From Pseudomonadota bacterium (GTDB lineage: Bacteria > Bdellovibrionota_C > UBA2361 > OMII01): a stretch of 32,689 bases of DNA. A program made the translations under genes and the position numbers. The notes under the pieces were generated by a model. The model did no database searches, was not told the origin of the DNA, and worked only from the letters and a program-made list of their open reading frames with translations. Positions 24,635 through 32,689 of this stretch are shown here, piece by piece (the first letter of the stretch is position 1; every line of letters starts with the position of its first letter). Location of the stretch: the NCBI GenBank assembly GCA_900299055.1, contig OMII01000026.1, positions 1-32,689 on the forward strand. The letters run 5' to 3'.

Positions 24635-26053
24635 CTAGCACTGCTGACTACCGATGCACTGCGATGCCTCAATAGGGCCATAGCACACCCCTCCGAAGTT
24701 CATGTAAATCATCGAACTACCGGTATTTGCTCGAGCTTTTGATGCGACACTCGAACCATTCAAAGGCGTACCTGCGCCACAACCAACCCCTGCATAGTAA
24801 CGAGCTGCCCAACCCGCCCCTTGGGAATACAAGCCCAACTGAGCTATCACCGCCCCCTTTGAGTCGATAGCGCGAACGCAGCTCGGGAAAGGGCCTCTGC
24901 CACCTGGCTTCACCACGATACCAATCGTGTTTCTGCGTACGTCAGAAAAGTGGTTAGAGCCGATCGTCTTGTATACATGCCCACCTGGCCACGGCACGAC
25001 CGAGGAACACTGCGCAAGCGAGCCTCCTCCCGATGAGTCGCTTCCTCCACCAGACGACCCCCCCGATGATCCCCCACTACTACCTGAGGACGATTCACCT
25101 TGAACTGCGATCGAGATCTCATCTACTGGCGTGCCGCCGAAGTTAGTGACCTCCTGCATCTCAGCTTGATATGGATTAATTACAACACTCTCTTCGTCAC
25201 TTTGCACAACGACCTCATAGCCATCCCCCGCTGTAAAGTCTCCTACCGAGATAGAACCACTACCTTGGACAAGCTCAGAGGCAATTCTCGTCCCTGCAAA
25301 ATTATAGACGAGTAGTTGAGTCACTCCTCCTTTTTGCGTTTGAAAACCCAGGAGGTCAGCTCCTGAAGCCTGGCGTATAGGAAAAGCACGTGGTCTCAGA
25401 CCGGTACTGGCAAACTTGGGAAGTCGTGAAAACTGCCGGGCCTGTCCTGTAGTCATATTGCGCATTCGCGCGTTAGACCGGTTTCTACTCCCCTTGCGCA
25501 TGACTCCGATCCAATCGATGCCATCACTATCGAGTCGTGCAAAAAAAACTCGATCTCCAGACTTACCAAACTGAAGAGTTTCCGTGGTCGGAGACGCACT
25601 TGCGAAAAGATCGTAGGAGAACTCCCATTGGGCCTTGCCGTTGACGAGTCGCACTACTGCCGCGTCAGCAGTACCATTCCCGTTAAAATCAGCCCCCGCG
25701 ATGACAAGATCTCCCGGCTTACCAAACGTCTTATCTATCCGAGCTGAGGAGGAATCGAGAATCGACCATTTCAATGAATCGGTGCTTGCATCCTCAGCAA
25801 CAACTCCGACTTGAGTTCCGCTACCGAGCCATTGGGCCATAATCGGCAGATCTCCTGAGGCGCCGATAGAACCAAGAGTGCTCGTCGACGAGGAGCCCGA
25901 TAACTGAGCTTTCCATGTCAAAGAACCGTCACTACCCTCGTCAATCCAGGCCCTATCGGAGATGCCGTCCCCATCGAAGTCGCTGGGAACTACAGCAAAG
26001 ACAGGAGTAGATATGCCCAAGAAAGACACGAACAGAACGAGTCGCTTTATCAT
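24635..26053 (-). CDS. Secreted FG-GAP/VCBS-like repeat protein with Ser/Gly linker and Cys-rich C-terminal domain
   Basis: Signal peptide 'MIKRLVLFVSFLGISTPVFA'; 'DFDGDGISDRAW', 'DFNGNGTADAAVVR'; linker 'SSGSSGGSSGGSSGGGSDSSGGGS'; six or more Cys after the linker. Confidence 0.8.
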   Translation of the reverse strand: MIKRLVLFVSFLGISTPVFAVVPSDFDGDGISDRAWIDEGSDGSLTWKAQLSGSSSTSTLGSIGASGDLPIMAQWLGSGTQVGVVAEDASTDSLKWSILDSSSARIDKTFGKPGDLVIAGADFNGNGTADAAVVRLVNGKAQWEFSYDLFASASPTTETLQFGKSGDRVFFARLDSDGIDWIGVMRKGSRNRSNARMRNMTTGQARQFSRLPKFASTGLRPRAFPIRQASGADLLGFQTQKGGVTQLLVYNFAGTRIASELVQGSGSISVGDFTAGDGYEVVVQSDEESVVINPYQAEMQEVTNFGGTPVDEISIAVQGESSSGSSGGSSGGSSGGGSDSSGGGSLAQCSSVVPWPGGHVYKTIGSNHFSDVRRNTIGIVVKPGGRGPFPSCVRAIDSKGAVIAQLGLYSQGAGWAARYYAGVGCGAGTPLNGSSVASKARANTGSSMIYMNFGGVCYGPIEASQCIGSQQC

Positions 26054-26191: not shown

Positions 26192-28015
26192 TCACATATC
26201 GTCACTCTCGGCGGCGCCCATCGATGCTGCTCGAAGTGCATTCACAACCGCAAATAAGTCTATCCCCTCTTGGAGCACAGCGCCCCAGACTGGAGTCAGA
26301 AAACCGAAAGCCGCCAGCAGCATTCCGATTACACTACACGTCATACCACCCACAGCACTCTGCAGAGCTATGCGTCGGAGCCGCGCACTGACGTGCAATA
26401 ACTGATCAACTTTACGTAAAGATGGCTCAAGAATCACAGCTCCCGCGGCCTCGGAAGTGATATCGCTTCGCGGCCCAAAGGCGACTCCCACGGTAGCTGC
26501 CGACAGAGCTGGAGCATCGTTAATTCCATCCCCAAGAAACAATGTCTGAGCACGCGCTGTCTCGTCGCGTGTTATCGAAACCTTATCTTCTGGTGAACGT
26601 CCCGCGTACACACGCGAAATGCCCATCTGCCGGGCGAGATACTGCACCTCTTCATCTCGATCGCCTGAGAGAAGAATGACATCTTTAAAATTATGGCGTG
26701 GCCCTAAATGGGAGAGAAACTGATGACTATCTGGCCGTGCTTGATCACGGAAATGAAGAACGCCTACTACCTGCCAATCGACGACTACAACGCATTCCAA
26801 TCCAGAAGACCGAGCTTCAAAACCAGTCAGCAGTGCGGGTTCGAGTGCCCGTCTCCCCGTAATCATGACGTGCTTACCTTCCACGCTTCCAGAGAGTCCC
26901 TGCCCAGGTATCTCACTCACATCAGTGACCGGCAGCACGACAATGTTTCGCTCCGCTGCTTTCGCTAGCACTGGGGCGGCAAGCGGGTGTCGTGAGTACT
27001 GCTCGAGGCTAGCAGCATACCGCAGTAGCTCATCTTCACTCACACCCTTGGTTTGAGCTGATTCTATAACGGGCTCTCCAATCGTAAGGGTCCCGGTTTT
27101 GTCTGTTATCAACACCTCGCATCGCTGCGCTCTTTCTAGCACGATGGGGTCTTTGATAATGATTCCGCGCTTGGCGCACCACGATATCGCCCCAAGTATC
27201 GCCACTGGGATGGCGATGATTAAAGGACAGGGTGTCGCTACGACTAACACTGCGAGAAACCTCCTCGGCTCCTCAGAAAATCCCCACGCAGCCAAAGCAA
27301 GCGCGAGGGCTATCGGTGTATACACAAGACCAAGGGTGTCCGCGATCCTCCGCATACGAGGGCGTCGCTGACGCGTTTCGTCCATGACCTGCATAATTGT
27401 TACGTAACGGGAGTCTTTGGCCTCGCGAACCGCTCGAATTACCAGCGGGCTCTCGCCATTAATTGCTCCAGAGATAACCTCGCAGCCCGGCGTCTTCGAG
27501 ATTCGATAGGGCTCTCCCGTCAGGTAGGACTCGTCCATTGCGCTGTGCCCCTCAAGCACGACTCCGTCGACCGGGCAGAGCTCATGTGGCAATACGACTA
27601 ATTCATCCCCAAGGCGCACCTCGCTGACTGAGATGTCTACCATGCTCACATTTACGCGTCGGTGCGCTATGGCAGGCATACGCTTAGCTAGCGCATCAAG
27701 AACCGACGATGCCCGCCGCATCGCATAATCCTCTAAGGCACTCCCTCCCGAGAGCATGAGCACTACGAGTGTGCCGGCAAGATATTCCCCGAGCGCAAGA
27801 GACGTAACAATAGAGACTCCCGCTAGCAAGTCAGAGCCAAACTGCCCCGCTAGCATTCCACCAACGAGGCGTACGACAAGAAACGCCCCTCCGCCTATGA
27901 GCGCAATTAACACAGGGAGCGACGTGTAGAGATCTGAACACCCAGCTAGGGTAAGAGCGAGCGTCGTAATAATCGCGATACACGACGTTGCCGCTACTAT
28001 CAGATTGGACGTCAT
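26192..28015 (-). CDS. P1B-type (heavy-metal) P-type ATPase with TPC transmembrane motif
   Basis: 'VVATPCPLIIAIPVAILGAISWCAKRGIIIKDPIVLE', 'LITDKTGTLTIGEPV', 'SRHPLAAPVL', 'LFLGDGINDAPALSAATVGVAFG'. ATG at 28015 preferred over 28111. Confidence 0.9.
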   Translation of the reverse strand: MTSNLIVAATSCIAIITTLALTLAGCSDLYTSLPVLIALIGGGAFLVVRLVGGMLAGQFGSDLLAGVSIVTSLALGEYLAGTLVVLMLSGGSALEDYAMRRASSVLDALAKRMPAIAHRRVNVSMVDISVSEVRLGDELVVLPHELCPVDGVVLEGHSAMDESYLTGEPYRISKTPGCEVISGAINGESPLVIRAVREAKDSRYVTIMQVMDETRQRRPRMRRIADTLGLVYTPIALALALAAWGFSEEPRRFLAVLVVATPCPLIIAIPVAILGAISWCAKRGIIIKDPIVLERAQRCEVLITDKTGTLTIGEPVIESAQTKGVSEDELLRYAASLEQYSRHPLAAPVLAKAAERNIVVLPVTDVSEIPGQGLSGSVEGKHVMITGRRALEPALLTGFEARSSGLECVVVVDWQVVGVLHFRDQARPDSHQFLSHLGPRHNFKDVILLSGDRDEEVQYLARQMGISRVYAGRSPEDKVSITRDETARAQTLFLGDGINDAPALSAATVGVAFGPRSDITSEAAGAVILEPSLRKVDQLLHVSARLRRIALQSAVGGMTCSVIGMLLAAFGFLTPVWGAVLQEGIDLFAVVNALRAASMGAAESDDM

Positions 28016-28186
28016 ACACCACACCTCAAAGATGAATTTCGCAGATAGACAGAAAGAGCCATGGCGTACACACGCCACACGTACGGGTGCAACACATCGA
28101 TTGCGCTGCACGCCTGCGCTACCTTACTGACCTGCTACACTTCACTACAGAGGGGGCTTGTAAGACTTTGCACAGCCATCATCACC

Positions 28187-28217
28187 GCCCCCGATTACCT
28201 CTCGTATAATCGGGGGC
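28187..28217. terminator. Perfect 11-bp hairpin downstream of the secreted recombinase-like gene and upstream of the P-type ATPase
   Basis: GCCCCCGATTA (28187-28197), 9-nt loop, TAATCGGGGGC (28207-28217); no U-tract. Confidence 0.5.
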
Positions 28218-28291: not shown

Positions 28292-29671
28292 TCAGCGGCT
28301 CGCACGATAAATGCCACCGATCGAAATTTTTGCATTCCTGGCTCTAGTTTTTGCCATTGCTCTAAGCTCACTGAGACATACAGCACTCCTCACTGTGGTG
28401 TGCAGAGCCCCAATCTTAGAAGACAGGAACAATGGATCGCTGGGTCCCTTTGGGGCCTCCGAAGAGGACACGTACTGGGCAATCGCACTCCTCGCTGCCC
28501 CACGCAACCTGATTCGTGTTGGTTTAGCTGCTGCGCGGGCTGAAACAGCCAGCACACCTTTCACCGGATCATAATCTCCCACCTTCACATTCACCAGAGC
28601 ACCAAGCGGGAGCGGCCTCTGGGCTAGCAACGCAATGATCGTTCGATCACGTAGGTCCGTGAGAGTTCCGGCTGGTATCTTTTTTACGAGCGCTGCGCGG
28701 GCCCGCGCTGAGACACTGATCGCACGACCAGTTCCCTGTTGTTTGATGGGGCAAAAGGAGTATGCGACCGAATGTGTATCGATCGCCCCTGAACCTGACG
28801 CATCTGGGACGCCCCTATCCGGAGTAGAGTCGCCATCGTCTGACGATGGGGGTGTGTCACCCCCACCCGCTCCAGTACGATCAGGACTTGAGAGCGGACA
28901 GGAGCTCACATTTGGCTGCTGAATGCTTGTGGCAACTCCGGAGCCAGCCGCAAGAGTAGTCCGAATTGTAAAGTTATCTAGACGTACCCGCCCGTTAACT
29001 TCTGTAAGAAAAATTCCAAATGCACGCACAGCGCCTGCCGACGGAAGAGGGCTGCCGTATGTGGATGGAATCACGGGTCCAAGTCCCGCCACGAGTGGCG
29101 CCGTTCCATAGCTCAGTGATGCGGGCGAAATAGTTACATCTTCCCACACTCCTGGACGTATCTGCTGAGTCGCCTCGCGAGAAATATACCAGGTATTATC
29201 GACGAGAAATGCGAGCTGCGTTTGATTATTCTGATTGGCGGGATTAATACCGCTCAACCTCTGCTTGTATGATATCTCCGAGGCTCCAGATTTTAGTAAG
29301 CCTACATCAAAGGAGAATTCACTTGTGAGAACAGACAAGCCATACACCGGGCGAAACCAAAATGCATACCCTTGAGACAACCCCGACGGCGCACTATTCA
29401 CAGCTCCTCCTATTACTGCGCTTCCGTACGAAAATACCTTGAGGTTGCTTATTTTCTCGACCGGCAATCCTGATACCACGCCGAACCACCTTGACTCACT
29501 TGCCCCTTCCTTACCAAGCGAACCACTACAAAAGCTAAACGTTTCCTTATAAATTGTGTCGTTTTGCGCCACCGCTTGGTTGACGGCAACGCCACTTACA
29601 ACTGCCCACGCCGCAACGAACCCAACGCATTTGCTCAACACTCTTTGTTTTACGAGCTGTACTGTTTTCAC
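28292..29671 (-). CDS. Predicted secreted protein: N-terminal beta-rich (LamG-like?) domain, Asp/Ser/Gly linker, C-terminal degenerate tyrosine-recombinase-like domain
   Basis: Signal peptide 'CVGFVAAWAVVSGVAVNQAVAQ'. C-terminus 'KKIPAGTLTDLRDRTIIALLAQ..LVNVKVGDYDPVKGVLAVSARAAAKPTRIRLRGAARSAIAQYV...DPLFLSSKIGAL...KISIGGIYRASR' parallels the phage-integrase core (LRDRaliaLL..LvnLkvsDiD..kGvL.V..K..rvpL...a..al..Yl..dpLFlS..G). Confidence 0.65.
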   Translation of the reverse strand: MKTVQLVKQRVLSKCVGFVAAWAVVSGVAVNQAVAQNDTIYKETFSFCSGSLGKEGASESRWFGVVSGLPVEKISNLKVFSYGSAVIGGAVNSAPSGLSQGYAFWFRPVYGLSVLTSEFSFDVGLLKSGASEISYKQRLSGINPANQNNQTQLAFLVDNTWYISREATQQIRPGVWEDVTISPASLSYGTAPLVAGLGPVIPSTYGSPLPSAGAVRAFGIFLTEVNGRVRLDNFTIRTTLAAGSGVATSIQQPNVSSCPLSSPDRTGAGGGDTPPSSDDGDSTPDRGVPDASGSGAIDTHSVAYSFCPIKQQGTGRAISVSARARAALVKKIPAGTLTDLRDRTIIALLAQRPLPLGALVNVKVGDYDPVKGVLAVSARAAAKPTRIRLRGAARSAIAQYVSSSEAPKGPSDPLFLSSKIGALHTTVRSAVCLSELRAMAKTRARNAKISIGGIYRASR

Positions 29672-29819
29672 CGATGTCTCCTTGATATGCGAAATCGAAA
29701 CCTAGCGGAGCAACAACGAATGTTGCCCGCGTTACAGGGAGCATTGGTATAGAAATAATGAGAGGCCTGAAATGAGCTCTCTCATGGAGATTCAAGGCAC
29801 GTGCGGCGAACTCAGCATC

Positions 29820-30341
29820 TTAGCTGCGCAACTTACGCTGTAAACTACGCCTGTGCACGCCAAGTATTTTTGCACTTTGTGTGACGTTTCCATCACACTC
29901 CGAAAGAACTCGCTGCACATATTCCGCCTCTACTTCTGCCAGCGATGGCATCTGCATTGCACTCTGGGCGACCACTCGATCAGGCGAGAACGAGTCAAGA
30001 ACACACTCCGCTGATACAGGTTTTGTAAGGTAGTTAATCGCGCCTGCCCTCACAGCTTCAAGTGCAGTGGAGATACTACCAAAGCCTGTTAGAACCACCA
30101 CAGCTAGCTGTGGATCTCGCTGACGCAATTCACGCACAAGCCATAGACCACTCTGACCGGGCATACGCAGGTCGACCACGGCGCTATCGGGTTTATAGTC
30201 TCCCTGCGCCTCAAGTGCTTCGTTGGCATTTGCCGCCTCAAACACCTCAAGGCCAAGCTGCGAAAGCGATCGCTTCAGTCGCCGGCGAAAAGTATCATCG
30301 TCATCGCAAAGAAGAATCCGCTGCGGCGTGCGCTCACTCAT
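29820..30341 (-). CDS. RegA/PrrA/ActR-like response regulator with Fis-type HTH
   Basis: 'ILLCDDDDTFRRRLKRSL', 'AVVDLRMPGQSGLWLVRELR', 'AINYLTKP', HTH 'NVTQSAKILGVHRRSLQRKL'. Confidence 0.9.
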   Translation of the reverse strand: MSERTPQRILLCDDDDTFRRRLKRSLSQLGLEVFEAANANEALEAQGDYKPDSAVVDLRMPGQSGLWLVRELRQRDPQLAVVVLTGFGSISTALEAVRAGAINYLTKPVSAECVLDSFSPDRVVAQSAMQMPSLAEVEAEYVQRVLSECDGNVTQSAKILGVHRRSLQRKLRS

Positions 30342-31639
30342 ACTGCCACCACTCGCGGAATACGCAGGATCACGGACGTGCCCTTGCCAAGCACCGACTC
30401 AACAGAGAGGATTCCACCAACCTGTGCTGCGAATAATTTGGCGAGATACAGCCCAAGGCCCATCCCCTCTCCTGGCTCTTTCGAGGTAAAAAACGGCTCT
30501 CCGGCGCGCCTCCGCACCTCTTCAGTCATACCAACGCCGGTATCAATCACTGAAAACGTAACTAGCTCATCATCAAGCCTCACCGAGACTCGAACTTCCC
30601 CACCTGCTGCGCAGGCCTGCAAACCATTGCGGATAAGGCTATGCAACGTCGAGGAAAGCCCTCCCCTCAAGGTCACCAGAGAGCTTGCCCCGACATCGGG
30701 CTCAACATCACTGACAAGGCTAGAGGCATCGAATTGGGAGGAAACGTCATCGAGCACGTCCGAGATCTCACAGCGGCTCGGCACTTCTCCAGCAAGCTCG
30801 CTACTCTGTCCCCGCATTCGCTGGAGAATCGCACCACAACGCTCCAATTCCTGACGCATGAGCTTGACATCGTCAGACCACGGAGAATCTTCAGCTAAAT
30901 CGCGCGCAAGGTCGTTACCTATTAAGACAAGAGTGCCGATCGGAGACGCCAGTTCATGTGCGGCACCAGCAGTTAGAGTCGCTAGCGACGCCAGTCGACA
31001 CCGTTCATCCTCCGCGCGCTCTAACGCTGAGATAACTCTCGCTTGCTCTAGTATCTCTCGATTCATTCTGGTCACAAACGCCGCAACGATGACTCCGATT
31101 ACCAAAAAAGCCACAAACATCCCGTGAAGGTGGAGTGACATGGTTTCTCCATGGCCGTGATGCGCGTGATGTGAATGCATACCCAACTGAGGGAGTGGTA
31201 CATGGACGTAGAATAGCGCAATAAAACAGCAGGTAGAGATGACCAACACACCCCAGGTCCACGCAGCGTCCAAGAAGAATGCTGCGAGCGTTACATACAC
31301 TAAAAACATCATGCTGAATGGATTGGTATAACCACCACTCATGTAAAGAAGTCCCGTGAGGACTACTACGTCAACCACGAGCGACATCCCAGCTATACGC
31401 CTCGGAGGTGTGCCATCACTCGCGGCACGTATCATCAGAAAGAAATTGAAGAGAGCGCTAACGCTCAGGACTCCAGCAACCTGCTCCCACGGAAGCGGGA
31501 AGTCGAACGCATACGCTGCGCCAATAAAAATTACTAAGAGCGATATGATAGACGCCCACCGAATCTTAATGAGCCACGACAGCTCAATATTTTCTTTGGC
31601 GCTCGTCCGCGCCGTGGAGGTCGATAAATCCAGTTTCAT
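30338..31639 (-). CDS. RegB/PrrB-like redox sensor histidine kinase
   Basis: Multi-TM N-terminus with 'YMSGGYTNPFSMMFL'; H-box 'GAAHELASPIGTLVLI'; Cys in 'QELERCGAILQRM'; HATPase 'IRNGLQAC', 'VIDTGVGMT', 'GMGLGLYLAKLF'. 4-bp overlap with the regulator. Confidence 0.9.
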   Translation of the reverse strand: MKLDLSTSTARTSAKENIELSWLIKIRWASIISLLVIFIGAAYAFDFPLPWEQVAGVLSVSALFNFFLMIRAASDGTPPRRIAGMSLVVDVVVLTGLLYMSGGYTNPFSMMFLVYVTLAAFFLDAAWTWGVLVISTCCFIALFYVHVPLPQLGMHSHHAHHGHGETMSLHLHGMFVAFLVIGVIVAAFVTRMNREILEQARVISALERAEDERCRLASLATLTAGAAHELASPIGTLVLIGNDLARDLAEDSPWSDDVKLMRQELERCGAILQRMRGQSSELAGEVPSRCEISDVLDDVSSQFDASSLVSDVEPDVGASSLVTLRGGLSSTLHSLIRNGLQACAAGGEVRVSVRLDDELVTFSVIDTGVGMTEEVRRRAGEPFFTSKEPGEGMGLGLYLAKLFAAQVGGILSVESVLGKGTSVILRIPRVVAV

Positions 31640-31750: not shown

Positions 31751-32689
31751 TTATGGCGCGCCGCACAAGACAGAGGCCGATGAGACAACTCCACCATCAG
31801 CAGGAGTAGTACCTGTGTAACCTGCCGTGACTGTATAGCAACAGATAGTTGTTCCCGTAGAGCACGTTGAGCCCGCGCTACCATTGGTCACATTCCCGGC
31901 ATTAGTATAGTACGCATATGTGGAACTCGGGCAACTTTGACCGGTGCCCGCGGTTGTCCATAGGAGAGTTACCGCATCATTACCAGAGACATTACACTGA
32001 AACCCCCACATTCCACCGCCAGAATCAGCCGTCGAGGCTGACAGAGTTGAGTCAACGGATGATGTGGGAGTCACCGTAGGTGTGTGCGTAGGCGTTGGGG
32101 TAGGACCGCCGGGTGTATGGGTTGGAGACGCAGTCGGGGTCTCTGTTGGTGTATCCGTTGGTGTATCGGTTGGTGTATCAGAGGGAGAGGCCTCTGGGGT
32201 TTCAGTTGCTGTATCCATCGGCGTGTCCGTCGGCGCTTCAGTAGGTGTGTCGGTCGGCGTATCCGTTGGTGTATCAGTTGGCGTATCAGTTGGCGTATCA
32301 GTTGCTGTCTCAGCAGGCGTAATTGTTGGCGTACGAGTCGGAGTTATTGTCGGTGTGAGCGTTGGAGTAACGGTAGGCGTGACTGTCGGGGTACGAGTGG
32401 GCGTAAATGTCGGCATTATCGTCGGCGTACGCGTCGGAGTAGACGTAGGAGTAGCGGTTGGCGTGTAGGTTGGAGTTCTGGTCGGTGTGCCAGTTGGACT
32501 CTGTGTCGGTGTTACTGTTGGTGTATGCGTTGGGGTATACGTGGGCGTTACGGTAGGAGTGCTAGTAACTGTTGGCGTCAGTGCGGAGCGAGCCCCCCTC
32601 CCGCCATCAAATCGGTAGCGGCTCGACCCTGGACCACTCTCTACAAAGTCTCTGCGTGAAACCGCTCCATCACTCGAGTTACCATCAAA
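31751..32689 (-). CDS. (TPT)n-repeat protein with Ser/Thr/Cys-rich C-terminal domain, truncated at right edge
   Basis: The frame stays open upstream of the listed ATG (32416) to the window end (...[50 protein letters not shown]...). C-terminus '...[62 protein letters not shown]...'. Confidence 0.75.
32057..32582 (-). repeat. Long Thr-Pro codon repeat (about 175 codons), including runs of TPTD
   Basis: Tandem 'GTNGGNGTNTCNGTNGG' units on + strand; peptide [19 protein letters not shown] and variants on minus strand. Confidence 0.88.

Follow-up and report, generated by a model that had tools for sequence, protein, structure and literature searches.

A truncated tyrosine-recombinase-like half-domain at the C-terminus of a predicted exported protein family

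Proteins that keep a tyrosine-recombinase fold but no longer act as recombinases have been described before, and those that we found act inside the cell. MrpR/YopR, the SPbeta prophage repressor (8a0a, 8bpz), has an inactive tyrosine-recombinase fold with complete core-binding (CB) and catalytic (CAT) domains and binds DNA intracellularly (PMC10516654). Crypton-derived DUF3504 animal genes (KCTD1, ZMYM2-4, QRICH1, and KIAA1958) carry a domesticated tyrosine recombinase domain that is fused to other domains and lacks most of the catalytic tetrad (PMC3212892); many of these genes are transcriptional regulators, and we found no description of their export. In full-text searches of an open-access library, we found no description of an exported or secreted tyrosine-recombinase domain. 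A review of mobile-element genes recruited in prokaryotes contains neither "extracellular" nor "periplasm" (PMC8987985), and a survey of recombinases has none of the terms "signal peptide," "secreted," and "fusion" in its main text (PMC8138268).

The gene described here lies in a 32,689-nt stretch of DNA (the window), and its product ends in a module that resembles the first part of the CAT domain of Xer recombinases (XerA, 4a8e and 5hxy; XerD, 1a0p) in both sequence and predicted fold. Unlike these enzymes, the module family has no core-binding domain and no HxxR...H...Y half, has usually lost Arg I, bears a conserved couple of cysteines, and is predicted to be exported. It shares with MrpR/YopR a tyrosine-recombinase fold without recombinase function and with the DUF3504 proteins the loss of most of the tetrad and the fusion to other domains, but in contrast to the intracellular MrpR/YopR, only half of CAT is present and the protein is predicted to leave the cytoplasm.

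An initial sequence-only reading had proposed one continuous open reading frame with a beta-rich domain, an acidic, Gly-containing linker, and a recombinase-like C-terminus. This outline holds throughout: the gene is continuous, lies on the minus strand, and starts with GTG, and the three parts can be delimited as listed in Table 1. The N-terminus has a basic n-region, a hydrophobic core, and a cleavage-like site (AVA|Q), judged by eye to represent a signal peptide, and an equivalent is likewise visible by eye in the other family members with complete N-termini. Its sequence is hardly conserved among members (8-33% identity), which is to be expected of a signal peptide. No strong candidate for a second membrane span was seen after residue 60 (hydropathy maxima, 1.06-1.60). 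In the full-length structural model, the matches of the beta-sandwich part, to structures of CBM22, CBM11, sialidases, and lectins, are weak throughout.

Table 1. Features of the fusion gene and its surroundings in the window.
Feature	Position	Strand	Remarks
Whole gene	28292..29671	-	459 aa; product predicted to be exported, its C-terminal module resembling tyrosine recombinases; from ORF call and homologs
Shine-Dalgarno AAGGAG	29678..29683	-	6 nt before the GTG start; direct reading
Sec-type signal peptide, residues 1-36	29564..29671	-	Judged by eye; cleavage site inferred; equivalent in relatives with complete N-termini
Beta-sandwich domain, residues 37-240	28952..29563	-	Weakly similar to CBM22/CBM11/lectin folds; model partly low-confidence
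Acidic Gly/Asp/Pro linker, residues 241-305	28757..28951	-	Includes conserved C258; mostly pLDDT <50
Tyrosine-recombinase CAT-like half-domain, residues 306-459	28295..28756	-	Net charge +20; no catalytic residues
Cys307	28751..28753	-	First cysteine of the module; in all ten members
Pro355	28607..28609	-	Takes the place of active-site Arg I in the alignment to integrases
Cys432	28376..28378	-	Other module cysteine; found in 10/10 members; column is Cys in 0/23 integrases
RegA-like response regulator	29820..30341	-	Conserved upstream neighbor
RegB/PrrB-like redox histidine kinase	30338..31639	-	Conserved upstream neighbor; NF033792 E=3.7e-68, below curated cut-off
Heavy-metal P1B-type ATPase	26192..28111	-	Conserved downstream neighbor; TIGR01525 above cut-off
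Secreted FG-GAP-like protein	24635..26053	-	Further downstream, conserved; family match weak
Strong RNA hairpin between fusion gene and ATPase gene	28187..28217	-	Folding energy of 61 nt, -32.1 kcal/mol (z -5.25); lacks a U-run

The likeness of the C-terminus to tyrosine recombinases, also part of that reading, proved to be far above chance. Searched as a single sequence, the window protein gives nothing useful in Pfam or PHROGs but has a weak, yet significant match to the XerA model of NCBIfam over residues 328-425 (E=3.8e-5). With the cut-off relaxed to E=1, seven of eight family members match a Xer-type model (best 6.1e-9), and two of the eight match Pfam Phage_integrase (7.2e-6). A family profile built from ten modules finds XerA (4a8e, E=1.6e-9; 5hxy, E=4.3e-7) and XerD (E=3.6e-7) in the PDB. 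When run on 46 genomes translated in six frames, this profile ranks the modules first, followed, among the matches examined, by integrase-like open reading frames. It matches 23/23 integrases of related genomes (best 5.9e-19), although these had themselves been found with the unshuffled profile, whereas none of the 23 is matched at E<1e-3 once the profile is reversed or its columns are shuffled (20 shuffled versions). The loss of all integrases in these controls argues for homology rather than composition; hence, the module is homologous to the tyrosine-recombinase CAT domain. A tree of modules and integrases groups the modules together, with a support so weak (0.44) that it singles out no donor integrase.

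The predicted fold agrees with this assignment. An AlphaFold model of the module, computed from seven family sequences with no integrase among them, reached a mean pLDDT of 86.5 and a pTM of 0.85, and all 50 listed Foldseek matches in the PDB have the tyrosine-recombinase fold, with probabilities up to 1.00 and TM scores up to 0.66 on the query. Among these listed matches are XerA, Cre, XerD, XerH, lambda Int, Tn1549 Int, the integrase of phage Brujita, and MrpR/YopR. The C-terminal part of the full-length model gives the same answer (E=1.2e-4 to XerA). The predicted structure thus has the CAT fold over the first half of CAT only, and both the fold and the recurrence of the module are well supported.

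Aligned to the 23 integrases, the module spans CAT from the LRDRxxx motif to just before HxLRH; the eight distinct members tested stop 0-3 residues past the profile end, whereas the integrases run on for 59-142 residues that include the HxxR, H, and Tyr motifs. The sequence-only reading had noted the missing HxxR/H box correctly, as well as the replacement of the Arg I context (TGLRxSEL) by RPLPLGAL, but it had overlooked that the protein ends before the second half of the catalytic domain. Pro355 occupies the Arg I position. Its comparison of the ISIGGIY ending to the catalytic tyrosine segment does not stand: this stretch falls just before the HxLRH box when aligned to integrases, and relatives have other, unconserved endings (...LSSLIF, ...LSAPRAR). 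The His, Arg II, and Tyr segments are absent from every member, the hairpin Lys of recombinases is not kept, and in place of an N-terminal core-binding domain there are the signal peptide, beta-sandwich, and linker. Because the protein stops before the HxxR...Y half, it cannot recombine DNA. At the Arg I position, the proline of the window protein corresponds to arginine in relatives L075 and L076 and to lysine in a second module of genome G015 (see below), and such a gradual loss is consistent with an active enzyme as the ancestor.

Two properties have been gained. Beyond the signal peptide, each complete member has four cysteines and no more, in equivalent positions (48, 258, 307, and 432 in the window protein), with the second of the four displaced in the distant relative L076. 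Both module cysteines are found in 10/10 modules, and the column of C432 is never cysteine in the integrases. According to the model, a short strand precedes each of them (module residues 3-5 and 127-130), an arrangement compatible with a disulfide. The second property is charge: seven members measured have a module net charge of +17 to +27 and a pI of 10.5-11.8, and the net charge of the core is 13.6 per 100 residues vs 6.9 in integrases, mostly via loss of acidic residues. The highest integrase value (11.3 per 100) nearly reaches the lowest of the family (11.5), and since positive charge is common in recombinases, part of it is inherited. Net charge is better conserved than the individual basic positions, few of which are kept, and this suggests that any binding by the module would be electrostatic rather than sequence-specific.

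The fusion gene is present in 8/12 genomes of the genus, including that of the window (two copies are cut by contig ends), for the most part with a conserved gene order around it. Two further families of the order carry it as well, represented by G015 and by G028, in the latter of which a contig end truncates it. Among 383 genomes from 332 genera that were scanned, the module turned up in this order alone; the sole other match was a 323-aa integrase scoring 60.8 bits vs at least 140 for the modules. Single-sequence searches with the window protein, which reach close relatives only, found no relatives among viral contigs, plasmids, or phages, and hence give no evidence of a mobile carrier. Between the modules of the window and of L070 (75% identity), pN is 0.13 and pS is 0.88, from which it follows that selection keeps the module; this selection is purifying, with amino acids retained while synonymous sites are saturated (dS beyond the range in which dN/dS ratios can be given as numbers).

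The module is also found behind an unrelated carrier. In G015, a second copy (129 aa, net +22) follows a secreted GSDH-PKD protein after one in-frame TAA (L078:2100-5201, G015:C46), which may reflect a decaying copy, an assembly error, or stop readthrough; the GSDH-PKD body has a net charge of -28. Conversely, in G033, the N-terminal beta-sandwich domain occurs with a different C-terminus, in a TSP3-repeat protein (L010, G033:C49), so that modularity is seen in both directions. Both G015 carriers adjoin paralogous pectate lyases that are 61% identical (L076:7527-9311, L078:5449-7422) and are PelZ-like (E=4.7e-67; PDB pectate lyase, 1.2e-29). Like the module proteins, these lyases are presumably exported and combine a slightly acidic body (-6) with a strongly cationic C-terminal region (+38 and +27), but searches of these tails found no family match and, in contrast to the module, no recombinase match. 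In the G015 genome, exported proteins that act on carbohydrates thus repeatedly end in a cationic region. The association with pectate lyases is seen in this one genome only, the neighbors within the genus being RegBA, the metal ATPase, and the FG-GAP protein.

Taken together, we somewhat favor a reading in which a dead recombinase half has been exapted as an exported, disulfide-braced, cationic attachment module that binds polyanions. In this reading, the C-terminal domain goes back to a Xer-like tyrosine recombinase, of whose catalytic domain it retains the first half without DNA cleavage; the Sec pathway would export the window protein, and oxidation would pair C48 with C258 and C307 with C432. 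Outside the cell, the cationic half-domain would anchor the protein on a polyanion, plausibly an acidic polysaccharide, lipopolysaccharide (LPS), or extracellular DNA, as its charge and the gene context suggest, while the specific carbohydrate work may be done by the beta-sandwich domain or, in the other protein, by the sugar dehydrogenase with its PKD domains. The main rival, which we consider possible but unlikely, is that the module genuinely binds DNA outside the cell: having kept the DNA affinity of recombinases, it would capture DNA from the environment or from biofilms, to serve adhesion or uptake. Its strong positive charge, its descent from a DNA-binding domain, and the retention of basic residues near the beta-hairpin and helices (352, 379, 388, and 394) speak for this alternative, whereas the loss of Arg I in most members, of the hairpin Lys, and of the HxxR half, together with the low conservation of basic positions despite that of net charge, speaks against it, and no competence genes were recognized beside the fusion gene. 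Less probable still is a charge-independent protein-protein docking or sorting domain, by which secreted cargo would reach the cell surface or a partner. The module is always C-terminal and lies behind two unrelated exported bodies, as such a domain might, but its termini are not conserved and no genome holds more than two copies, unlike general sorting signals; for this latter reason, a general sorting tag was ranked low.

The sequence-only reading had also raised the alternative of a relic, that is, a piece of a recombinase gene that became fused accidentally and persists without function. One copy does have an in-frame stop, and in most pairs the module is more diverged than the N-terminal domain (about 38% vs 52-62% identity within the genus). 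Nevertheless, its conservation across three families, the invariant cysteines, one of which is foreign to integrases, the purifying selection indicated above, and the open frame in the other copies make this very improbable. That the protein is still a cytoplasmic DNA recombinase, for which only the similarity in fold would argue, is scarcely credible given the truncation common to all members and the predicted signal peptide. Instead, the original suggestion of a repurposed recombinase fold with predicted export is supported both by the structural match and by the occurrence of the fusion beyond this assembly.

In broader terms, a recombinase catalytic domain that was halved, locked by a disulfide, and exported has probably become a reusable extracellular binding module, and as far as we could find, it would be the first tyrosine-recombinase fold known to act outside the cytoplasm. 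If this is true, a fold used for genome rearrangement can cross a membrane and serve for binding, which would widen the range of what mobile-element enzymes can become and provide a naturally occurring minimal CAT half for study. For annotation pipelines, it would serve as a warning that weak "integrase" matches can mark surface proteins.

In the window and in L070, L071, and L075, the genes are arranged in the order RegB-RegA, fusion gene, metal P1B-ATPase, and FG-GAP protein. RegBA does not adjoin the fusion gene in L072 and L073, and the contig of L074 ends inside the gene. The hairpin that separates the fusion gene from the ATPase gene is a possible transcription boundary. The FG-GAP-like protein, which is syntenic across the genus, has a Gly-Ser linker and a Cys-containing C-terminal domain without a confident Pfam match. 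At the far end of the window (31751-32689), a protein that runs off the window end has a long Pro-Thr repeat linker (PTxTPT) and a Cys-containing C-terminal domain.
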